This document shows, piece after piece, positions 6,266 through 43,547 of a DNA stretch of 50,708 bases (its first letter is position 1; every line of letters begins with the position of its first letter). A program made the translations under genes and the position numbers. The notes beneath the pieces were generated by a model. It was not told the origin of the DNA. It made no database searches and was given only the letters and a program-made list of their open reading frames with translations. The stretch comes from a virus: positions 1 to 50,708 of IMG/VR virus record IMGVR_UViG_3300021079_000013, one strand, 5' to 3'.

Positions 6266-7277
6266 AAAAAACCCCATCCGTAGAAACGGACAGGGTTAAG
6301 GCAAAATAGGTTGAGAATACACCATTTTGTGAGAGACTTTACAGGAGATTATTTTGTTTCCTCCGATTTCCACTTCCTTTTGAGAAGTACCTCTCAGTCA
6401 CGGTCAATTAGATTAACCAATCCTAAAGTCGTAATATACTCTATTCTTACTCATCACTCTTCTAGGTTGCCACCCAAACTCATCCTTGCGGGATTAGAGA
6501 ACTTTCGAAACAATCGTATCGGGTTTGAGACCCTTTACGGCCATGAACAACTCATGACTAAGTAGTGACCTGTCTACCACGACTAACGAACACTTTTTCT
6601 TTTAATTTTTTAGTTTTCACCGTTTGAAAGTAAAAGTTTGATTTGTGGATAATAGATGTAGCGGTTCGTTAAACCAGCCATCCCATCTTTTGAACGAGAC
6701 GATACTGAACTACACCTTGAAGTCTCCCGACCTCCATACTTCGAGTCTATTTCATAACTGAAACCTTGGTAGGTCTCTGATAAGGAGAACAACAGCACCA
6801 CCTGTACGAACTCTTACCTTTCGGTTTTAAATCTACTCTAACATTGAACTCCGCAATTGTATAGTTGGACGACCATACTTCTCACAACAGCTCTACGAGT
6901 TATTCTTATTGGTGTTCCCACCTCAACCAAACGACCCACATCGCTTAGTCACCCAACCACTTTCCCTACAGTGTTACCCTCAGTACTAAAGGTCAGATGA
7001 TATCTCGCTTGTCTACTCGAGCTCCGTTACCGAAGCCGCAACCGTTCCAATCAAGAACAAATCACTTTATACCACTTTCATGGTTTATTTTATGGACTAT
7101 AGACCGCCCAATATATCTTATCATTTTGTTACTCAAAATCAACCCGAAGGTCTCATTATCAAACATTCTGAACAGACAATATTTTTATTCAAAGAACTTT
7201 TTAAAGAATGAAGAAAAGGGGAAACTTTACGACCAAGTAAACTTGGAACCTTTACTACCCCTTCTCTTCACTTGTCT
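6266..7277 (-). ncRNA. Candidate ~1-kb structured non-coding RNA (giant ornate type)
   Basis: A perfect promoter (7280-7311) fires into about 1,010 nt with no convincing reading frame on either strand, and the transcript ends at a 12-bp terminator (6270-6297) that has its T-run only in this orientation. The RNA has many local hairpins. A 5' domain is closed by AGACAA/UUGUCU (7272-7277 with 7174-7179) and contains a 12-bp stem (7258-7269 with 7210-7221) capped by CCAAG-UUUA-CUUGG. ACCAU-GAAA-GUGGU is at 7071-7084, GGUG-GGAA-CACC at 6911-6922, GAGGUC-GGGA-GACUUC at 6719-6734, GGGU-CUCAA-ACCC at 6521-6533, and a UUCG loop at about 7145. Size, repeated GNRA/UUCG loops and position beside a phage tRNA resemble the GOLLD and ROOL RNA classes, but membership is untested. 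Confidence 0.7.
6270..6297 (-). terminator. Strong intrinsic terminator ending the ~1-kb ncRNA
   Basis: On the minus strand AACCCTGTCCGT pairs completely (two wobbles) with ACGGATGGGGTT around a TTCT loop and is followed by TTTTATTT. There is no minus-strand gene here other than the non-coding RNA, so the terminator itself argues that the RNA is real. Confidence 0.9.
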
Positions 7278-7279
7278 TA

Positions 7280-7311
7280 CAAAGGTAAGAATGTTTTTGG
7301 AAACAATCAAA
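7280..7311 (-). promoter_or_regulatory. Bacteroidetes-type promoter for the ~1-kb ncRNA
   Basis: Minus strand: TTTG (7308-7311), 20-nt spacer, TACCTTTG (7280-7287). No start codon with a meaningful frame follows. Confidence 0.85.
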
Positions 7312-7321
7312 CTTTTTTGTA

Positions 7322-7458
7322 AGTTTTTTTAACAAGACAACTGAATTCGTTATTCTCCATTGAAGATGCGTTATTCACCATCAATCACCCCCCACTCCTA
7401 ATGGGACAGGTTAACTTCATCTCGATGTTAAAGAACTTTCGGTGTTACCCGATTGTTT
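7322..7458 (-). ncRNA. Candidate ~130-nt small RNA between tRNA and large ncRNA
   Basis: It starts at a perfect promoter (7461-7492) directly after the tRNA and ends somewhere before the next promoter; no terminator is visible. It can form UUAAC/GUUAA (7411-7431) with an inner AUC/GAU, and CCCA/UGGG (7391-7405). It contains a 13-nt direct repeat with one mismatch (7348-7360 and 7369-7381). A 24-codon frame (ATG at 7381 down to about 7307, running into the next promoter) preceded by GGGGGG is the only coding alternative. The 9-mer GGGUAACAC near its 5' end also occurs in the large RNA (6971-6979). Confidence 0.5.
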
Positions 7459-7492: not shown

Positions 7493-7501
7493 TCTTTTTT
7501 G

Positions 7502-7573
7502 TTGCGAGGGCGAGATTCGAACTCGCGACCTATAGGTTATGAGCCTACCGAGCTACCACTGCTCTACCTCACG
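7502..7573 (-). tRNA. tRNA-Met(CAU), initiator type
   Basis: The 72-nt cloverleaf has arms of 7, 4, 5 and 5 bp. The anticodon loop is CUCAUAA (anticodon CAU), the T arm is GCGAG-UUCGAAU-CUCGC and the discriminator is A73. Initiator features are visible: a C1 x A72 mismatch at the top of the acceptor stem, A11-U24 in the D stem, and G30-C40 and G31-C39 in the anticodon stem. The third initiator G-C pair is replaced by A29-U41. The 3' CCA is not encoded (the sequence after A73 is CAAAA). It sits between two ncRNA elements behind its own promoter (7742-7773). Confidence 0.93.
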
Positions 7574-7585
7574 ATATATCTTAAT

Positions 7586-7653
7586 GATTACAATCCCACT
7601 TCCCCATAGTCACCTATCCACGTCATGCGCTGGTTGTACCAGCGGGTGTAATC
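7586..7653 (-). ncRNA. 68-nt structured element (three-way junction) in the tRNA leader
   Basis: A 7-bp closing stem GATTACA/TGTAATC continues as CCC/GGG past a two-base bulge. It encloses a 6-bp hairpin CGCTGG-TACAA-CCAGCG and a second arm with AUAG-GUGA-CUAU (GNRA loop). It ends 12 nt before the tRNA, in the same transcript. The size and 7-bp acceptor-like stem recall a tRNA, but no T arm or anticodon arm exists. It could be a tRNA-processing guide, a regulatory element or a small RNA; the function is unknown. Confidence 0.55.
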
Positions 7654-7685
7654 AATATTTTTAAAAGAACTAATTTAGAAAAGAA

Positions 7686-7731
7686 GTCCCACAAGCTTCA
7701 ATTATTTTCTCAAACAATACACTTGTGGGAC
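7686..7731 (-). terminator. 10-bp stem near the tRNA transcript 5' end (attenuator-like)
   Basis: On the minus strand GTCCCACAAG pairs perfectly with CTTGTGGGAC across a 26-nt loop, followed by TTCTTTTCT. It begins about 10 nt after the predicted start of the tRNA transcript. It could act as an attenuator or protect the 5' end. Confidence 0.5.
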
Positions 7732-7741
7732 AATTGTTTCA

Positions 7742-7773
7742 CAAAGATAAGAAAGTTTTGGGGAACTATCAAA
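7742..7773 (-). promoter_or_regulatory. Bacteroidetes-type promoter for the tRNA transcript
   Basis: Minus strand: TTTG (7770-7773), 20-nt spacer, TATCTTTG (7742-7749). The predicted transcript carries the 10-bp stem, the 68-nt element and the tRNA. Confidence 0.85.
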
Positions 7774-14188: not shown

Positions 14189-14968
14189 TTACTCTTCAGA
14201 GTCAAAGTTTTTTATCTTTTCTAAATTAACTATTTGAAATACATAAGCCATTATTTTTCTTTTCATTATAGGAATTAATGTCTCATTCATTGGAAAATGA
14301 TGTGATGTTTTCATTTCAAATATAGGAAATTCGTGGTGTTGTCCTGATTCTTTCCAAGTTGAATAGTTATCAATAATTTTAACCAAATTAATATCTTTAG
14401 GTTCATCATTGAATATCAATTTAAGGTGAGTCTTGTTATTAATATCATCACCTTTTACTTTTTTGATTTGATATTCCCACACATAAAGTTTGTTGTCATA
14501 TTTGTCATAAAAATATATATAACCAACTCCCCCTGATAAATTATGTTTGTTTTTTTTAAGGGAAACAGATAGTGAATCATATGCCATGTTCCAAATAGAT
14601 TTGGCCATGTTGAATGCATCAAATAATTTTCCACCAGAATATTTGATAGTTTTATCTAGTTCATGTTCTTCCTCAGAACTTAAGTCTCTTGGCTTTTTAG
14701 GATAAAGTTCTTTTAATAAAATTTCATCGTCACAAGATTCAAATACTTTATTTGTTAATAATAAAGTATTCTCTTTAACAATTGATTGTAGATTGGCAAG
14801 ATGCAATGATAGTTCAACAAAATCTGGATATATTTCCAGTTTGTCAAATCCTTTCTCACACTTCTGTAAGTAATCTAATAAAGTGTATTTGTTATATTCA
14901 AAATCAACTGGTTCTTTAAATAACCATTCAGGATTAAGTTTGAACGACATTTTCTTTTTTCTTCCCAT
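14189..14968 (-). CDS. Hypothetical protein, 259 aa, first gene of the sulfotransferase operon
   Basis: The protein starts MGRKKKMSFKLNPEWLFKEP, with LNPEWLFKEPVDFEYNKYTL as a conserved-looking N-terminal block, followed by a helical middle and a beta-rich C-terminus. No enzymatic motif is visible. The ATG lies only 4 nt after a -7 box (TATATTTG, 14973-14980), the position expected of a leaderless transcript. This fixes the start and gives the operon 14968-11180 its own host-type promoter. Confidence 0.8.
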   Translation of the reverse strand: MGRKKKMSFKLNPEWLFKEPVDFEYNKYTLLDYLQKCEKGFDKLEIYPDFVELSLHLANLQSIVKENTLLLTNKVFESCDDEILLKELYPKKPRDLSSEEEHELDKTIKYSGGKLFDAFNMAKSIWNMAYDSLSVSLKKNKHNLSGGVGYIYFYDKYDNKLYVWEYQIKKVKGDDINNKTHLKLIFNDEPKDINLVKIIDNYSTWKESGQHHEFPIFEMKTSHHFPMNETLIPIMKRKIMAYVFQIVNLEKIKNFDSEE

Positions 14969-18870: not shown

Positions 18871-19715
18871 TGAAATTCTTAAACATATTAAATACCGTTA
18901 TATCCGAACAAAAAAGATTTCAGTTTGACCCAGAAACTTATGCCAACCTAACAGCATTAACAGATAAACTCTGGTCAATAAGAAATAGAGAATTTAAAAA
19001 CAAAACAAAGGTTGACCAACTTCAATTCAAAACATCAGACGGATCAAATGGATTAGTTCAATTCTATATTAACCCAAGATATAAACACTTTGGTGAATTA
19101 GATACAAGACCAAAAGGTTCAAGAGACCCATTAGATTTAGTAATACAATTAAATCCAAAAAAATATGGTTCAAAGAAAAACTTATTCTTAACCATCTACC
19201 ACGAAATGCTCCACGCCACAGACCCATCACAATCCACAAAAATGAATATCAAGTTCCAATCAACTTATAACGATAAAAGTGATAAAGATTATTGGGGACA
19301 TAAAATTGAATTCAGGGCAATAACAAATGAATTTTTGGAAGCATTAGTTGGTGAATTTACAAGGAGATTTAACAGATTAAAAAATCCTGAGAACAAAAAA
19401 TATCTTCTTAAATCTTTAAATAATATAATAAACTACTTTGGAAAAAATGAGCCCTTATCAAAACTATCTTTAGATATACTTGATAGACTGAATGATGAAA
19501 ATATTTCTGATAATAAAATATCTAAAGTTATTTCAAATATTAGTATGGATTTTCCACAAACAACTGAATTACTCAGAAATAAAAAAGAACCTTACTTCCT
19601 AACTTATATTGAATTAATCAAAAAATATAATCCTAAAATGTGGCCGAGATTTCTGACCATGTTATATAACACAAAAGATGAAATTGAAACATTATTAAAT
19701 AAAGAAGGGATTTAA
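18870..19715 (+). CDS. SprT-like/HExxH zinc metallopeptidase-like protein with possible capsid-targeting start
   Basis: This 281-aa protein has YHEMLHATDPS near residue 111 (HExxH) and a downstream helix EFRAITNEFLEAL carrying candidate third-ligand glutamates. The N-terminus MKFLNILNTVISEQKRF is strikingly like that of the unrelated LRR protein at 30402-31718 (MKFTSLLKSVILEQSRF). This marks it as a shared leader rather than part of the protease fold. The HExxH core resembles SprT-like or phage-encoded minimal metallopeptidases, but the exact family is not fixed. It is convergent with the tail-fibre genes (4-nt overlap). Confidence 0.7.
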   Translation: MKFLNILNTVISEQKRFQFDPETYANLTALTDKLWSIRNREFKNKTKVDQLQFKTSDGSNGLVQFYINPRYKHFGELDTRPKGSRDPLDLVIQLNPKKYGSKKNLFLTIYHEMLHATDPSQSTKMNIKFQSTYNDKSDKDYWGHKIEFRAITNEFLEALVGEFTRRFNRLKNPENKKYLLKSLNNIINYFGKNEPLSKLSLDILDRLNDENISDNKISKVISNISMDFPQTTELLRNKKEPYFLTYIELIKKYNPKMWPRFLTMLYNTKDEIETLLNKEGI

Positions 19716-21607
19716 ATTAATCCCTTTTCTTTTGCCAATAATTCTAATTTATTTAACTTTTCTTCTTTAATATCAATTATATTTGATTGTTCTTTAATTG
19801 CTTCAATACACATAACAATAATATCTTGATATTTTACTTTTAACATATTTCCTTTTCCCTCGTTACCAAATACAACTTCAGGTAAAACAAATTCTAATTC
19901 TTGTGCAATAAATCCAATATCTTTAGTTCCTCCTTCAGGAAGACCAATATTTGAATTTTTCTTCCATACAAAACTTACACCTCTAATTTTACTAATTTTT
20001 TCAATCGCATGTGTAATTGGTTTAATATCCTTTTTTAATCTTTGATCAGAAGGACCTGCAGGTCCTGTTGCTCCAGGATCGCCGGTAAAACCTCCTGCTC
20101 CTGGTGACCCTGTCGCTCCACCTCCACCTTGAGAACCTTGAGCTCCTCCTGGTCCTGTTGGTCCTCCTGGTCCTTGGGCACCTTGTCCTCCACTTCCACC
20201 TTGTGAACCTTGGGCTCCAGTCGATCCACCTCCACCTTGAGAACCTTGTCCTCCTTGTGAACCTTGAGCTCCAGTCGCTCCACCTCCACCTTGTGAACCT
20301 TGTCCTCCTTGTGATCCTTGGGCTCCTGTTGATCCAGCACCCCCTTGAGCTCCTTGGTTTCCTTGTGATCCAACTGAACCTTGTGCTCCAACTGAACCTT
20401 GTGAACCTTGGCCTCCTTGAGCTCCTTGGGCTCCTGTCGATCCACCACCACCTTGTGAACCTTGTCCTCCTTGTGATCCTTGGGCTCCTGTCGCTCCACC
20501 ACCTCCTTGAGCTCCTTGGGCTCCTTGTCCACCTGTTGGTCCTGTAGGACCTGTAGTACCTTGGGCTCCTTGTCCACCTTGTGAACCTTGACCACCTTGA
20601 GCTCCTTGATTTCCTGTTGCACCACCACCGCCTTGAGCTCCTTGTGCCCCTTGTCCACCTGTTGGTCCTGTCGGACCTGTAGTACCTTGGGCTCCTTGTC
20701 CACCTTGTGAACCTTGTCCTCCTTGAGCTCCTTGATTTCCTGTTGCTCCACCACCGCCTTGAGCTCCTTGTGCCCCTTGTCCACCTGTTGGTCCTGTAGG
20801 ACCTTTAGTACCTTGGGCTCCTTGTCCACCTTGTGAACCTTGACCACCTTGAGCTCCTTGATTTCCTGTTGCACCACCACCGCCTTGGGCTCCTTGAGCA
20901 CCTTGACCACCTTGAGCTCCTTGATTTCCTGTTGCGCCACCACCGCCTTGGGCTCCTTGAGCACCTTGACCACCTTGAGCTCCTTGATTTCCTGTTGCGC
21001 CACCACCACCTGTAGTACCTTGTGAACCTTGTCCACCTTGAGCTCCTTGGTTACCTGTTGCTCCACCACCGCCTTTGGCTCCTTGCGCCCCTTGACCACC
21101 TTGAGCTCCTTGATTACCTGTCGCTCCACCACCGCCTTGGGCTCCTTGAGCACCTTGACCACCTTGAGCTCCTTGATTTCCTGTCGCTCCTTGAGATCCT
21201 TGTGCACCTTGTGCACCTTGACCACCTTGTGATCCTTGACCACCTTGTGATCCTTGGGCTCCTGTTGATGCTATAGTTCCTTGGGCTCCTTGTCCTCCTG
21301 TATTTCCTTGTGAACCTTGAGCCCCTTGAGCTCCTTGATTGCCTGTCGGACCTGTTGGTTGTAATGCTCCTTTCCATCCAGTACTATCAATTAAGGTTCC
21401 TGAATTATTAATTAAAGATGTTACTAATTTAAGATCTGCTCCACTAACTGCAAAAGTTGGTGAAGTAGTATTGAAAGTTAAATAAGTAGTTGCACCTCTT
21501 TTAAATTTAAGTGAACCAGACTCTATAACTAAGGTAGTTACAGTACTTGCTGTATCGCTAAAATCAATTGTTCCCGTTCCAGGTGTTATTAATATATTTT
21601 CAGGCAC
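19712..21607 (-). CDS. Collagen-like tail fibre with S74 chaperone (fibre 3)
   Basis: This 631-aa fibre has a unique beta-rich N-terminus (about residues 1-80, presumably attachment), a long Gly-X-Y collagen-like shaft (about 86-516) rich in GAQ, GSQ, GNQ, GGQ and GPT triplets, and a C-terminal intramolecular chaperone starting SDQRLKKDIKPI at residue 520. S74-family chaperones trimerise the fibre and then cut themselves off just before the Ser, using the Ser/Lys dyad in S-D-x-R-x-K, which is intact here. A coiled coil ends the protein (EEKLNKLELLAKEKG). The DNA is a tandem array of 9-bp-based repeats that creates long spurious frames. It overlaps the 21600 gene by 8 nt. Confidence 0.88.
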   Translation of the reverse strand: MPENILITPGTGTIDFSDTASTVTTLVIESGSLKFKRGATTYLTFNTTSPTFAVSGADLKLVTSLINNSGTLIDSTGWKGALQPTGPTGNQGAQGAQGSQGNTGGQGAQGTIASTGAQGSQGGQGSQGGQGAQGAQGSQGATGNQGAQGGQGAQGAQGGGGATGNQGAQGGQGAQGAKGGGGATGNQGAQGGQGSQGTTGGGGATGNQGAQGGQGAQGAQGGGGATGNQGAQGGQGAQGAQGGGGATGNQGAQGGQGSQGGQGAQGTKGPTGPTGGQGAQGAQGGGGATGNQGAQGGQGSQGGQGAQGTTGPTGPTGGQGAQGAQGGGGATGNQGAQGGQGSQGGQGAQGTTGPTGPTGGQGAQGAQGGGGATGAQGSQGGQGSQGGGGSTGAQGAQGGQGSQGSVGAQGSVGSQGNQGAQGGAGSTGAQGSQGGQGSQGGGGATGAQGSQGGQGSQGGGGSTGAQGSQGGSGGQGAQGPGGPTGPGGAQGSQGGGGATGSPGAGGFTGDPGATGPAGPSDQRLKKDIKPITHAIEKISKIRGVSFVWKKNSNIGLPEGGTKDIGFIAQELEFVLPEVVFGNEGKGNMLKVKYQDIIVMCIEAIKEQSNIIDIKEEKLNKLELLAKEKGLI

Positions 21608-23699
21608 TGACTACTTCTTTTAATTTGTTTATTCTTTTATATATAGAATCAATATTTTTTTGTTGTTCTTGGATACTACCTACACCAAGAGTTACCATTA
21701 TATCATATTGTACAGTCTTATATCCATCATCGTCTGTCCAAACAATTTCAGGTACTATTAATTCTAATTGTTGGGCAATAACACCTATAGATTCACCATA
21801 ATAAACACTATGTTCAGGATTTTTCTCTTTTATTTTATCTTTTAACTTAGGATGCTCATGATCCCAAACAAATGTTACTCCTTCAATTTGTTTTGCGGAC
21901 TCAAAACTATTTTCTAATTTTTTAATATTATCTTTAAGTCTTTTATCTGACGGAGATCCTGTTGGTCCTGTAGGTCCTTGAGCACCTTGTCCTCCTGTTG
22001 AACCAGCTCCACCTTGAGATCCTTGAGCCCCTTGAGTTGAACTGGGAGTTCCTTGAGGTCCTTGAGATCCTTGAGCCCCTGTTGTTCCGACATTAGTTCC
22101 TTGTGCTCCAGTTGCTCCACCTCCACCTTGTGAACCCTGTGCTCCTGTAGATGAACTTGCAGCTGCTGGTGCTCCAGCTCCACCTTGTGACCCTTGAGCT
22201 CCTGTAGATGTACTTGCCGCTGCCGGTGCTCCACCTCCACCTTGTGATCCTTGGGCTCCCGTGTTACCTGCTGCTCCTTGAGGTCCAAAATTTCCTTGTG
22301 CCCCCTGCGCACCAGTGTTTGCAGGAGCTCCTGCCGAACCTCCACCACCTTGTGATCCTTGAGCTCCTGTTGATGTACTTGCGGCTGCGGGTGAACCTTG
22401 GGCTCCTTGGGCTCCTTGAGCACCTTGGGCTCCTGTTGATGCTCCTTGAGCACCTTGGGATCCTTGAGCACCTGTCGCACCTGTATTTCCTTGGGCTCCT
22501 GTGTTACCACCCTGTGCACCTGTTGAACCACCTCCCCCTTGGGCTCCTTGAGCACCTTGGGCTCCTGTTGATGCTCCTTGAGCACCTTGAGATCCTTGAG
22601 CTCCTATCGCACCTGTATTTCCTTGAGCTCCTGTAACACCACCTTGAGCTCCTGTTGAACCTCCTCCCCCTTGGGCTCCTTGAGCACCTTGGGCTCCTGT
22701 TGATGCTCCTTGTGCTCCTTGGGATCCTTGGGCTCCTGTCGCACCTGTATTTCCTTGGGATCCTGTAACACCACCTTGAGCTCCTGTTGAACCTCCTCCC
22801 CCTTGGGCTCCTTGAGCACCTTGGGCTCCTGTTGATGCTCCTTGAGCACCTTGAGCACCTTGGAGTCCTGTAGCTCCTGTATTTCCTTGGGCTCCTGTAA
22901 CACCACCTTGTGCACCTGTCGCACCTCCTCCACCTTGTGCTCCTTGATTACCTTGGGCTCCTGTTGATGCTCCTTGAGCACCTTGGGCTCCTGTTCCTCC
23001 TTGTGCTCCTTGAGCACCTTGGGCTCCTGTTGATGCTCCTTGAGCACCTTGGGCTCCTGTTCCTCCTTGGGCTCCTTGAGCACCTTGGGCTCCTGTTGAT
23101 GCTCCTTGAGCACCTTGGGCTCCTGTTCCTCCTTGGGCTCCTTGAGCACCTTGGGCTCCTGTTGATGCTCCTTGAGCACCTTGGGATCCTGTTCCTCCTT
23201 GGGCTCCTGTATTTCCTTGAGCTCCTGTTGATGCTCCTTGAGCACCTTGGGCTCCTGTTCCTCCTTGTGCTCCTGTATTTCCTTGGGCTCCTACATTTCC
23301 TTGGGCTCCTTGATTTCCTAATGCTCCTTGAGATCCTTGGGCTCCTTGAGCTCCTTGAGCACCTGTACTTCCCACAACCCCTTGAGCACCTTGTGAACCT
23401 ACATTTCCTTGTGCCCCCTGAGCTCCTTGTGCACCTTTTATTCCTGCAGTAGGTCCGACCCAAACAGCTGATGAATTAATCATTTGAACACCACCAACAT
23501 ATAATGTACCAGTAGTTATTGAGGCACCACTACTAACTATATTTGCACCTATGGATATCGCATTTGGATTTGTTGTTCCAGACACTACAAGAGTACTTCC
23601 ACTTGCATCCCAAAGTATTCGATTCGTTCCATCATCAAATACTACGTGTGGGTCTGTAATGCTACCATTACCTTGAGGATATATAATTACATTTGCCAT
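21600..23699 (-). CDS. Collagen-like tail fibre with S74 chaperone (fibre 2)
   Basis: This 699-aa fibre has an N-terminal domain of about 88 residues (MANVIIYPQGNGSITDPHVV...). A Gly-X-Y shaft follows, largely built of a 22-residue module (GAQGAQGASTGAQGAQGAQGG with T) repeated several times, interrupted by Ala/Ser-rich breaks (APAAASTST). The C-terminus is an S74 chaperone from residue 584 (SDKRLKDNIKKL), with the catalytic Ser and Lys present. The shaft breaks could be flexible kinks. Its start overlaps the previous stop (TAATG), so the three fibres are coupled. Confidence 0.88.
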   Translation of the reverse strand: MANVIIYPQGNGSITDPHVVFDDGTNRILWDASGSTLVVSGTTNPNAISIGANIVSSGASITTGTLYVGGVQMINSSAVWVGPTAGIKGAQGAQGAQGNVGSQGAQGVVGSTGAQGAQGAQGSQGALGNQGAQGNVGAQGNTGAQGGTGAQGAQGASTGAQGNTGAQGGTGSQGAQGASTGAQGAQGAQGGTGAQGAQGASTGAQGAQGAQGGTGAQGAQGASTGAQGAQGAQGGTGAQGAQGASTGAQGNQGAQGGGGATGAQGGVTGAQGNTGATGLQGAQGAQGASTGAQGAQGAQGGGGSTGAQGGVTGSQGNTGATGAQGSQGAQGASTGAQGAQGAQGGGGSTGAQGGVTGAQGNTGAIGAQGSQGAQGASTGAQGAQGAQGGGGSTGAQGGNTGAQGNTGATGAQGSQGAQGASTGAQGAQGAQGAQGSPAAASTSTGAQGSQGGGGSAGAPANTGAQGAQGNFGPQGAAGNTGAQGSQGGGGAPAAASTSTGAQGSQGGAGAPAAASSSTGAQGSQGGGGATGAQGTNVGTTGAQGSQGPQGTPSSTQGAQGSQGGAGSTGGQGAQGPTGPTGSPSDKRLKDNIKKLENSFESAKQIEGVTFVWDHEHPKLKDKIKEKNPEHSVYYGESIGVIAQQLELIVPEIVWTDDDGYKTVQYDIMVTLGVGSIQEQQKNIDSIYKRINKLKEVVSA
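22975..23265 (-). repeat. 66-bp tandem DNA repeats within fibre 2
   Basis: About four to five near-identical 66-bp units encode the 22-residue GAQGAQGAST... module. Units differ by a few third-position or GAQ/GNQ changes. Such arrays can gain or lose units by recombination, changing shaft length by multiples of 22 residues without a frameshift. Confidence 0.8.
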
Positions 23700-25765
23700 T
23701 AACTAAGTTTGGATTCAATAAAGTTTAATTCTTTGTCAATATCTTCAATAAATACTTGTTGTTCTTTTATTGCTTCCACTAAAACAGCGTTTAATTTAGA
23801 ATAATTTATAAAATAATACCCATCATTTAAACCTACAACTTCAGGAAAATATTTTTTAACATTTTGAGCAATTAATCCTATTGAATGTAATTTTTTATTT
23901 TTAACAACATTTTTATAAAATTCAGGAAGATTATCATTCCAATCAAACTCAACAACATCCAATTCAAGAATCTTTTTTAAACTATCCTTTAAAACTTCAA
24001 TTCCTTGTTTTAATCTAACATCAGAACAACCATAATAAACTGTCCAATCACCAGTACCATTAACATCTCCACATTGAGCGCAACCTGTAAATGCGTCTCC
24101 AGCATGATACCATGATTTAGTATCAGATTGACAGTAATTATAATCAGGATATATTTGGTATGTATAACCATAACTTGAAGAACATGTACTTGTTAAAACA
24201 CGACTATACGCACTAATACCAGTACCATAATTACAAGCGTAATAACATCCACTTCCAAAACTAGGTATATTACCTCCAAGAGAATAACAAGTAAAACTAG
24301 CAGGTCCTGTTGGTCCTGCAGGCCCTTGAGCTCCTGTTGGCCCTTGAGGTCCTTTAGACCCTTGAGCTCCTGTGTCTCCTTGAGGTCCTGTACCCCCTGG
24401 ACCTCCTGCAGCTCCTGGACTTCCTTGAGGTCCGCTATATCCACCTGCTCCACCTCCTCCTTGAGACCCTTGTGCTCCCGTTGCACCTTGTGGTCCAGGT
24501 CCTGTGGCTCCCCCTTGAGATCCTTGTGCTCCCGTTGCACCTTGTGGTCCAACTCCTGTAGCCGGACCTTGAGATCCTTGAGCTCCTGTTGAACCTTGTG
24601 GTCCAGTTGGCCCTTGAGGTCCCTTAGGTCCTTGTGCTCCTTGACCACCTGTTGGTCCAGTTCCTGTCGCACCTCCTTGAGCTCCTTGAGCTCCCGTCGC
24701 ACCTTGTGGACCAACTCCTGTGGCTGGACCTTGAGCTCCTTGTGCTCCCGTTGCACCTCCTGAACCTTGTGCTCCCGTATGACCTGTGGCTCCTGGGGAA
24801 CCTACAGGTCCTTGAGATCCTGTGGCTCCTGTTGGACCGATTGCACCTCCACCTCCTTGAGCACCTTGTGCTCCCGTTGCTCCTCCCGAACCTTGTGCTC
24901 CTGTATTACCTGTGGCTCCTGGAGAACCTAAAGGTCCTTGAGCACCTGTGGCTCCTGTTGGACCGATTGCACCTCCACCTCCTTGAGCACCTTGTGCTCC
25001 CGTTGCACCTCCCGAACCTTGTGCTCCCGTATTACCTGTATTACCTTGAGCACCTTGAGCTCCTGTTCCACCTCCTGAACCTTGTGCTCCCGTATTACCT
25101 GTGGCGCCTTGAGTACCTTGAGCTCCCGTTGCTCCTCCTGAACCTTGCGCTCCCGTATTACCTGTATTACCTTGAGTACCTTGGGCTCCCGTTGCTCCAC
25201 CTGAACCTTGTGCTCCCGTATTACCTGTATTACCTTGAGCACCTTGTGCTCCTGTTGCTCCTCCTGAACCTTGTGCTCCCGTATTACCTGTATTACCTTG
25301 AGTACCTTGTGCTCCTGTTGCTCCTCCTGAACCTTGTGCACCTGTATTACCTACAGATCCGGTAACTCCTACAGCACCTTGAGCTCCTTGAACTAAACTA
25401 ACAGCTCCTTGAGACCCTACAGCTCCTTGAGCTCCTTGGGATCCGATAGCTCCTGTATTACCTTGAGCTCCTTGTGCTCCTGCAATACTAGTACTTGGAC
25501 CTATCCACGCATTTGTTGCATTAATTACTTGAGTTCCACCAACAGCAAAATAATCTCTGACACTTAAACTAGCTCCAACCGATATAATTAAATTTGAAGG
25601 CTGAATGGATAAAACATTCGATACTGTAGCAGCACTAAATGCAATAGTCGCTCCTGATAGAACTTGAAGTCCTACTATAGTTGTATTCTCAAAACTTATG
25701 TAAGGAATCCTACTCGCTTCAGGTGCAATGGTATTACTTGGAACGATTAATATATTTTTAGCCAT
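23699..25765 (-). CDS. Collagen-like tail fibre with Cys-rich tip and S74 chaperone (fibre 1)
   Basis: This 688-aa fibre is the first gene of the fibre operon. It has an N-terminal beta domain (MAKNILIVPSNTIAPEASRI...), a Gly-X-Y shaft with GPT, GPQ and GAQ triplets (about residues 100-490), then an extra domain of about 90 residues with eight cysteines and many Tyr/Gly (from SFTCYSLGG to YYGC). That domain is followed at once by the S74 chaperone (SDVRLKQGIEVL, residue 581). The Cys/Tyr domain would be the exposed tip after autocleavage and is the best candidate for receptor binding; it is absent in the two sister fibres. A TATTTATA element lies 21 nt upstream. Confidence 0.88.
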   Translation of the reverse strand: MAKNILIVPSNTIAPEASRIPYISFENTTIVGLQVLSGATIAFSAATVSNVLSIQPSNLIISVGASLSVRDYFAVGGTQVINATNAWIGPSTSIAGAQGAQGNTGAIGSQGAQGAVGSQGAVSLVQGAQGAVGVTGSVGNTGAQGSGGATGAQGTQGNTGNTGAQGSGGATGAQGAQGNTGNTGAQGSGGATGAQGTQGNTGNTGAQGSGGATGAQGTQGATGNTGAQGSGGGTGAQGAQGNTGNTGAQGSGGATGAQGAQGGGGAIGPTGATGAQGPLGSPGATGNTGAQGSGGATGAQGAQGGGGAIGPTGATGSQGPVGSPGATGHTGAQGSGGATGAQGAQGPATGVGPQGATGAQGAQGGATGTGPTGGQGAQGPKGPQGPTGPQGSTGAQGSQGPATGVGPQGATGAQGSQGGATGPGPQGATGAQGSQGGGGAGGYSGPQGSPGAAGGPGGTGPQGDTGAQGSKGPQGPTGAQGPAGPTGPASFTCYSLGGNIPSFGSGCYYACNYGTGISAYSRVLTSTCSSSYGYTYQIYPDYNYCQSDTKSWYHAGDAFTGCAQCGDVNGTGDWTVYYGCSDVRLKQGIEVLKDSLKKILELDVVEFDWNDNLPEFYKNVVKNKKLHSIGLIAQNVKKYFPEVVGLNDGYYFINYSKLNAVLVEAIKEQQVFIEDIDKELNFIESKLS

Positions 25766-41709: not shown

Positions 41710-42507
41710 TTACATATAATCAAACAACGAACTTGTTTCATTTCGCAATTTTCTTAACGCTTTTTCCTTAATCTGTCTCACACGTTCCTTTGTTAAATCA
41801 AAGTCATTTCCAATATCTTCAAGGGTTCTTGTTGAACCAGAAAGACCAAAATAATCTTCCACAATAATTCTTTCCCTCTCATCCAATACATCCAACATAC
41901 ATATTAACATATCTTTCAATGTTTGTTCTGTGGTCATATTGGCATCAGCCAAATCAGCATTGGGATTATTCAATATATCCATCAAAGTATCACCATCCTC
42001 ATTTAAAGGTGAATCCAAATTAACCGTATATGGAAGATTAACAAACTTTTCTGGTAGCTCAACACCAGCATTATCCAATTCCTTCTTGGCCTTATGCAAT
42101 TCTTGAACCACATTCACGGGCAAACGAATGGTTCTCGCATTCTCATTTAAAGATTGAAGAATGGATTGTCTAACCCACCAAACAGCATAAGATATAAACC
42201 TTAATTTCTTTGACCAATCAAAATTTTCAATGGCCTTCATCAACCCATAGTTACCCTCAGCAATCAAGTCAGGAAAATCCAATCCTTGGTTTTGGTATTG
42301 CTTACTTACGGTAATCACAAAACGCAAATTACCCTCCAAAATTTCTTTTTTAATGTCCGCCTTTTCATTATCTGTTATGTTATCAGATAACATTCTCTCA
42401 GATAATTCTCTCTCCCTCTCAGGAGTCATGACAGTTAGTTTTCTAATGTCTTTTAAATAACTTGCAATTTCTTCTTGGTTGATTGGTATTACTGCTTTTT
42501 CTTTCAT
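41710..42507 (-). CDS. RNA polymerase sigma-70 family factor
   Basis: This 265-aa sigma factor retains regions 1.2 to 4. ISYAVWWVRQSILQSLNENA is region 2.4 (recognition of the -10 element). LRFVITVSKQYQNQGLDFPD is region 2.1-2.2. Region 3 spans about residues 140-185. Region 4.2 is TLEDIGNDFDLTKERVRQIK, with a helix-turn-helix for -35 contacts. It resembles host RpoD in the core but is shorter, with no region 1.1. A phage sigma factor redirects host RNA polymerase, most likely to the TATTTATA late-promoter candidates here. It is the second gene of a two-gene unit and is followed by a terminator. Confidence 0.93.
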   Translation of the reverse strand: MKEKAVIPINQEEIASYLKDIRKLTVMTPERERELSERMLSDNITDNEKADIKKEILEGNLRFVITVSKQYQNQGLDFPDLIAEGNYGLMKAIENFDWSKKLRFISYAVWWVRQSILQSLNENARTIRLPVNVVQELHKAKKELDNAGVELPEKFVNLPYTVNLDSPLNEDGDTLMDILNNPNADLADANMTTEQTLKDMLICMLDVLDERERIIVEDYFGLSGSTRTLEDIGNDFDLTKERVRQIKEKALRKLRNETSSLFDYM

Positions 42508-43058: not shown

Positions 43059-43547
43059 TTAATAAATTATGTTTTCAAAATATACTTTTCCTTTTGCTCC
43101 TGAATGTTGTTCATACCACTTTCCTTCTTTGTCCAACCACACATAAGGATTAGTTGGATCTTCAGTCCACCCATATTGATTATAAAAATCAGGTTCCTTC
43201 TTTAATAAATTTGCACGATGTGAAGAATGGAATCTTTCATTACCAAACCACTCAGGATAAAATACCGATTCATCGATAACCTCCTTGTTCATCGTATTCT
43301 TGAATCCACGTTTAACCCACTCATCAATACTTGCATTCAAGTACATCTTAAGCAATGGTACGTGTTTTCTCCACATTGTGGTTGCTGGATGATTAACCCA
43401 ACCCTTATAAGGTGTACCATCCAACTTTGGTCTACCAAGTATTGCATTTATAATTTGAAAGGTCTCAACTCTTTGTTTTCCCAAACGCTTGTTGTCAAGG
43501 ACCCTTAATGATTCAGTTATGTCTGAATATGGTAAGAATGTTTGCAT
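43059..43547 (-). CDS. Pyrimidine-dimer DNA glycosylase-like protein
   Basis: This 162-aa protein matches the widespread MQTFLPYxD family, related to T4 endonuclease V-type pyrimidine-dimer glycosylases. It starts MQTFLPYSDITESLRVLDNK, continues RLGKQRVETFQI and GWVNHPATTMWRKH, and ends in a basic domain. Such enzymes excise UV photoproducts and nick DNA via an imine intermediate. The canonical start places the ATG only 4 nt after a -7 box (43552-43559), so the mRNA is leaderless. Confidence 0.85.
   Translation of the reverse strand: MQTFLPYSDITESLRVLDNKRLGKQRVETFQIINAILGRPKLDGTPYKGWVNHPATTMWRKHVPLLKMYLNASIDEWVKRGFKNTMNKEVIDESVFYPEWFGNERFHSSHRANLLKKEPDFYNQYGWTEDPTNPYVWLDKEGKWYEQHSGAKGKVYFENIIY

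Follow-up and report, generated by a model that had tools for sequence, protein, structure and literature searches.

Why would a phage carry a single tRNA gene, and why one of initiator type? The question is posed by a 50,708-base virus record (IMG/VR IMGVR_UViG_3300021079_000013), here called the window, i.e., the whole stretch of DNA that was analyzed. Codon compensation is a poor explanation for such a lone tRNA because an initiator reads start codons only. ARAGORN identifies one tRNA in the window, a tRNA-Met(cat) at 7501-7573 on the minus strand, and Rfam returns a tRNA match at 7573-7502 (-) with 64.7 bits (E 7e-12). A preliminary description of this DNA had placed an initiator-type tRNA-Met at 7502-7573; the position is correct, and the strand, which it did not give, is minus. 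The GOLLD RNA that adjoins the tRNA was absent from that description. A search with 25 kb of the window found no closely similar DNA among phage records.

Initiator features occur at several positions of the phage tRNA. Specifically, position 1-72 is a C1xA72 mismatch with no Watson-Crick pair, the D-stem carries A11-U24, and the anticodon stem consists of A29-U41, G30-C40, and G31-C39. Two of three G-C pairs are therefore present, as the preliminary description had also read, and the tRNA lacks the canonical 3GC arrangement, i.e., three consecutive G-C pairs at 29-31/39-41. The anticodon loop is CUCAUAA, the anticodon is CAU, and the discriminator base is A73. The gene is followed by CAAAAAAG; thus, CCA is not encoded. 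The phage tRNA has an identity of 0.757 to E. coli tRNA-fMet, compared with 0.622 to E. coli elongator Met and 0.589 to tRNA-Ile2(CAU). Its mean identity reaches 0.752 with 30 Bacteroidota initiators, compared with 0.559 for 12 phage elongator-Met tRNAs. A tree, in which the E. coli sequences were included, groups it with the initiators at modest support (0.67). The identity elements, the identity comparison, and the tree bear out the proposal of an initiator-type tRNA-Met, and the gene groups with initiators and not with elongator tRNA-Met or tRNA-Ile2. Those two identities are ruled out by the comparison, by the tree, and by the CAU tRNAs of island-type phages considered below.

Relatives of the tRNA point in the same direction. 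In 18 distinct GOLLD-linked sequences, 99.7% of cloverleaf cells are paired and 8 pairs have changed on both sides. Pairs 11-24, 29-41, 30-40, and 31-39 are constant in all 18, and position 1-72 is non-Watson-Crick in 16 and U1-A72 in 2. The other stems covary while the initiator pairs stay constant; thus, the sequence evolves in the manner of a functional tRNA that has initiator identity. A chance tRNA-like sequence is ruled out by the Rfam score and by the cloverleaf conserved in these 18 relatives. Judged from its sequence, the phage gene is an initiator-type tRNA of AU/GC/GC form, not the canonical 3GC form.

How does this form compare with initiators elsewhere? Bacteroidota initiators, retrieved with a pattern that left position 29 free, have GGG among the matches listed, except for one genome chosen for AGG. 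The phage tRNA departs from Bacteroidota initiators at 29-41 and in the length of the D-loop, which is short in the phage. The AU/GC/GC initiator form is also present in contigs assigned to Bacteroidales, Planctomycetes, Omnitrophota, and other groups, and some of these cases may be phage sequence within bacterial-assigned assemblies. The earlier view that an initiator is unusual for a phage stands only in part. A pattern for the AU/GC/GC initiator type has at least 120 matches in viral contigs, and tRNA-Met genes with initiator features exist in named phages, e.g., Cellulophaga phi4:1 and Serratia BF. Initiator tRNA-fMet is likewise phage-encoded in cyanophages, as a review mentions (PMC4810235), and in Sinorhizobium prophages, from which it has been reported (PMC12429752). 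However, the cyanophage initiator occurs among many elongator tRNAs (PMC4810235), whereas the window tRNA is the only one in its record and is linked to GOLLD. Moreover, unlike the known phage tRNA-fMet, it has A29-U41 and not three G-C pairs.

Such departures from the host form could reflect conflict over the initiator itself. The hypothesis is that the phage tRNA replaces a host initiator cut by an anticodon nuclease of the VapC kind, with the changed anticodon stem and short D-loop conferring resistance. Some VapC enzymes are known to cleave initiator tRNA, phage tRNAs have been proposed to evade such nucleases (PMC10264068), and the differences at 29-41 and in D-loop length are consistent with this notion. 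We nonetheless consider it quite unlikely: the CUCAUAA loop is that of an ordinary initiator and escape mutations are placed in the loop (PMC10264068), phages of the VapC-bearing host mostly avoid encoding tRNA-fMet (PMC10264068), and the link to GOLLD would be left unexplained.

The genes of the window lend no support to the suggestion, made in the preliminary description, that the initiator is connected to leaderless genes. Rather, both the SD-like tetramers and the promoter spacing are as usual with a Bacteroidota host. Bacteroidota translation normally starts without an SD sequence. Of 48 window genes, 3 are preceded by SD-like tetramers, compared with 2.1 expected, and the visible Bacteroidota-type promoters mostly end 18-36 nt ahead of the start codon. 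The only possibly leaderless genes are 43059-43547 and 14189-14968, each with a promoter that ends 4 nt before the start. Elsewhere in the window, three large genes at 19712-25765 (-) combine collagen-like repeats with an S74 chaperone domain and probably encode tail fibres; their G+C content is 45-49%, compared with ~30% around them.

The tRNA and GOLLD are co-oriented (-), and the GOLLD 5' domain starts ~380 nt downstream of the tRNA. Conservation across 16 module clusters delimits the parts: it is 0.85 in the tRNA, 0.39-0.60 in the spacer, 0.76-0.82 at promoter P3, and high again from ~7120, with values of ~0.5 before ~7123 and 0.7-0.9 after. The GOLLD 5' domain obtained in this way spans ~400 nt. 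A recent structural report gives 420 nt for the 5' domain of env-38 GOLLD (Kretsch et al. 2025, PMC12286853), and the conserved stretch matches it in length. Because a promoter and ~380 nt lie between them, the tRNA is a gene separate from GOLLD, and a tRNA inside the GOLLD gene is not supported. On sequence grounds, the tRNA gene is the one that opens a non-coding module comprising P1, boxA, a structured element, tRNAi, P2/P3 with boxA, GOLLD, and a terminator (Table 1). On the opposite strand, a 111-codon ORF at 6997-7332 (+), antisense to the spacer and the GOLLD 5' end, is probably no gene.

Table 1. Features of the tRNA-GOLLD module in the window, in order of transcription
Feature	Position	Strand	Basis or remark
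Promoter P1, TTTG-N20-TATCTTTG	7742..7773	-	Pattern; upstream of tRNA
Hairpin at start of P1 transcript (GTCCCACAAG...CTTGTGGGAC, then T-rich)	7686..7731	-	Folded; seen in related leaders
boxA-like AGTTCTTTTA after P1	7662..7671	-	Compare rRNA leaders
Structured RNA element (candidate), invariant CAACCAGNGCAUGACNUGGAU core, covarying closing stem	7585..7654	-	~70 nt, 11 nt upstream of tRNA
Initiator-type tRNA(CAU)	7502..7573	-	ARAGORN, Rfam, C1xA72, A11-U24, A29-U41/G30-C40/G31-C39, A73
Promoter P2	7461..7492	-	Pattern; directly after tRNA
boxA-like AGTTCTTTAA after P2	7428..7437	-	Motif search
Promoter P3	7280..7311	-	Pattern; conserved island at 7323-7274
boxA-like AGTTCTTTGA after P3	7189..7198	-	Motif search
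GOLLD 5' domain	6718..7120	-	Conservation rise between 16 modules; outer boundary approximate
GOLLD RNA 3' domain (RF02032, model 1-416)	6308..6717	-	324 bits, gathering 150, E 4e-92
Intrinsic terminator after GOLLD	6270..6297	-	12-pair stem then TTTTATTT

Is the pairing of GOLLD with an initiator specific? A GOLLD pattern chosen irrespective of tRNAs matched 53 stretches, and GOLLD was confirmed in 50 of the 50 records checked. In this set, a lone tRNA lies directly upstream of GOLLD at 19 loci and on one further contig when its two loci, L006 and L158, are joined, i.e., on 20 contigs, and all 20 tRNAs are of the AU/GC/GC initiator type. The CAU tRNAs of island-type GOLLD phages are elongators in 11 of 11 cases examined. 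In LR745206.1, a 634-kb uncultured phage, an initiator-type tRNA (UA/GC/GC) lies 540 nt upstream of GOLLD. From the side of the tRNA, GOLLD is not a near-universal partner of phage initiators, as it is found in only 7 of 50 initiator-pattern records.

Some GOLLD loci carry an altered molecule. In ten GOLLD records (L124, L126, L132, L134, L142, L163, L167, L169, and contigs of L135 and L141), a variant cloverleaf takes the place of the tRNA. It keeps the CAU loop, the T-arm, and the acceptor, and its D-arm is truncated to a three-base loop. Among five distinct variant sequences, the CUCAUAA loop is constant and the anticodon stem covaries. The variant is unlikely to be a normal initiator. A tRNA-like variant with a three-base-closed D-arm is seen in L124, L126, L492, L509, and L510. 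Two further arrangements were observed: a viral contig on which a tmRNA gene (85 bits) follows GOLLD at a distance of ~1.9 kb (L153:3109-3511), and a tRNA starting 10 nt after the GOLLD end, with an anticodon region that is not CAU (L411:3338-3410, LR756502.1).

The genes around the module bear on the origin of the pairing. In 15 of 16 module clusters, flanking proteins are shared among the clusters, with identities to the window's proteins of 30-86%; L032 and LR745206.1 stand apart from, or outside, this comparison. Many independent origins of the pairing are thereby made less credible. Most modules belong to a single broad lineage of phages; thus, the pairing shows long conservation, not many independent gains. 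Shared ancestry could account for the pairing, and this possibility counts against the explanation that we favor below.

Expression of the module appears to follow a distinctive plan. The window contains 12 Bacteroidota-type promoters of the form TTTG-N18-21-TANNTTTG, compared with 2.6 expected. P1 sits 168 nt upstream of the tRNA, and nearly all modules have a promoter upstream of the tRNA. P3 is the probable GOLLD promoter. The three-promoter plan is kept in related modules, with P2 and P3 merged in some. The motif GTTCTT[TA] follows 33 of 41 module promoters in the 16 clusters, compared with 1.05 expected from shuffling, and the minus strand of the window has just three copies of AGTTCTTT[ATG]A, one after each of P1, P2, and P3. 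Bacteroidota 16S leaders have a similar promoter, followed by boxA-like GTTCATTAACATATTG, GTTCTTTGAAAG, or GTTCTTTAAGAT. Thus, the module shares with the bacterial rRNA operon leader (promoter, boxB/boxA, structured RNA) a promoter followed by a boxA-like GTTCTTT(A/G)A, ahead of a tRNA and a large structured RNA. Unlike the rRNA operon, the module encodes tRNAi and GOLLD and not rRNA, and it has three promoters, each with its own boxA. We infer that antitermination of the rRNA type may operate at the boxA-like sites, and the predicted hairpin at the start of the P1 transcript is a possible attenuator or boxB-like hairpin. The window also encodes, at 41710-42507 (-), a phage sigma-70 family factor with regions 2 and 4 that could serve the module promoters.

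The presence of several promoters bears on what GOLLD and the tRNA might do together. GOLLD is described in PMC12286853 as forming a 14-mer nanocage, as rising during phage lysis, as sometimes having tRNAs within its linker, and as recovering ribosomes in pull-downs. The notion that tRNA and GOLLD form a machine that captures or occupies ribosomes, i.e., an RNA cage with a P-site ligand, either tethered or in trans, builds on the cage, the linker tRNAs, the ribosomes, and the place of env-38 downstream of a Met-tRNA. Retention of the CAU loop even in variants lacking a normal D-arm fits as well. We regard the notion as doubtful: with P2 and P3 located between tRNA and GOLLD, the tRNA can be absent from most GOLLD transcripts, and island phages possess GOLLD but no initiator among the CAU tRNAs examined.

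The ~70-nt element that precedes the tRNA may represent a new RNA family. By hand count in eight sequences, its closing stem varies between phages yet pairs at 7 or 8 of 8 positions, and its CAACCAGNGCAUGACNUGGAU core holds a compensatory C-G/A-U pair. No Rfam family, ribozymes included, matches the element, which lies 5' of the tRNA; a known Rfam RNA was thus rejected. A host origin was likewise rejected, as the sequence is absent from 345 Bacteroidota genomes. A search of a phage collection gave no match. Viral contigs contain 53 distinct sequences of the element (~60-70 nt). Most of them lie 30-45 nt upstream of a tRNA or have a tRNA on either side, and some copies have no detected tRNA; loci carrying it include L200, L247, L490, L491, L498, L503, L504, and L514. 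Theta (HDV-like) ribozymes are also structured RNAs beside phage tRNAs, mainly in Bacteroidota phages (PMC10879173). However, they abut the tRNA 3' end (PMC10879173), whereas the element precedes the tRNA or is flanked by tRNAs, and its core shows no evident resemblance to them. That the element controls transcription or tRNA processing is a guess.

A structured RNA 11 nt from the tRNA, together with the T-arm and acceptor that persist in the variants, would suit a tRNA that is mainly a transcription or processing device, whose cloverleaf brings in RNase P and sets the end of the transcript and whose initiator identity is due to descent only. This reading is highly improbable: the initiator pairs and the CAU loop are invariant in 18 sequences whose other pairs covary, and GOLLD has its own promoter. 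At some loci (L417, L418, L419, L422, L424, L426, L432, L434, and L437), the element is present and the tRNA ends after its first nine bases, with no GOLLD after the broken-off tRNA within the range searched. These are apparently natural deletions of the module. Having lost all but nine tRNA bases, this group indicates that the module is dispensable there.

Parts of this arrangement have precedents. Phage initiator tRNAs are known, as is GOLLD near tRNAs, even downstream of Met-tRNA: env-38 GOLLD, from a marine metagenome, is reported to lie "downstream of Met-tRNA" (PMC12286853), the same order as in the window. However, in the accessible part of that report, the tRNA is not named an initiator, and a promoter/boxA plan and an upstream element are not described; here, these features are conserved across the 16 module clusters. 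What is new is the initiator identity of the GOLLD-linked tRNA, the conserved promoter/boxA architecture, and the upstream element. None of the three was found in the literature searched, and the 2009 GOLLD and 2020 mycobacterial GOLLD papers may describe parts.

Our favored explanation, to which we assign a probability of roughly 55%, is that the phage infects a Bacteroidota host and carries a genuine initiator-type tRNA in an rRNA-operon-like module that relies on boxA antitermination and host processing, supplies initiator, and has GOLLD as a partner. Specifically, boxA would recruit the host NusB-S10 antitermination machinery, yielding high, processive expression. The tRNA would be freed by RNase P and host 3' processing, CCA would then be added, and host enzymes would methionylate and formylate the product. 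A phage-controlled initiator, distinct from the host 3GC form, would allow initiation to go on during infection, serving it while host functions fail. GOLLD, expressed with the tRNA, would contribute as its partner to this takeover of translation, and it is plausible that the two act jointly at initiation. Conservation of the pair in many related phages makes it probable that both RNAs cooperate when the phage infects. Against this explanation stand the ten GOLLD records with a truncated D-arm and the loci at which the module is lost; in addition, among 40 ORFs searched in Pfam, which represent part of the genome, there is no initiation factor, formyltransferase, or deformylase. A bolder proposal, which we think unlikely, is that GOLLD and the initiator-type tRNA constitute a dedicated phage system that controls host translation initiation from an rRNA-mimicking operon, and that the ~70-nt element represents a new structured RNA class of phage tRNA arrays controlling tRNA processing or transcription.

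The window offers a clear-cut example of a solitary phage tRNA whose presence is hardly accounted for by codon compensation. The structure of GOLLD is solved, and a conserved initiator tRNA partner, combined with the promoters and rRNA-type boxA sites, makes a specific idea about its function testable: GOLLD may work on ribosomes at the initiation step of translation, at rRNA-like abundance.
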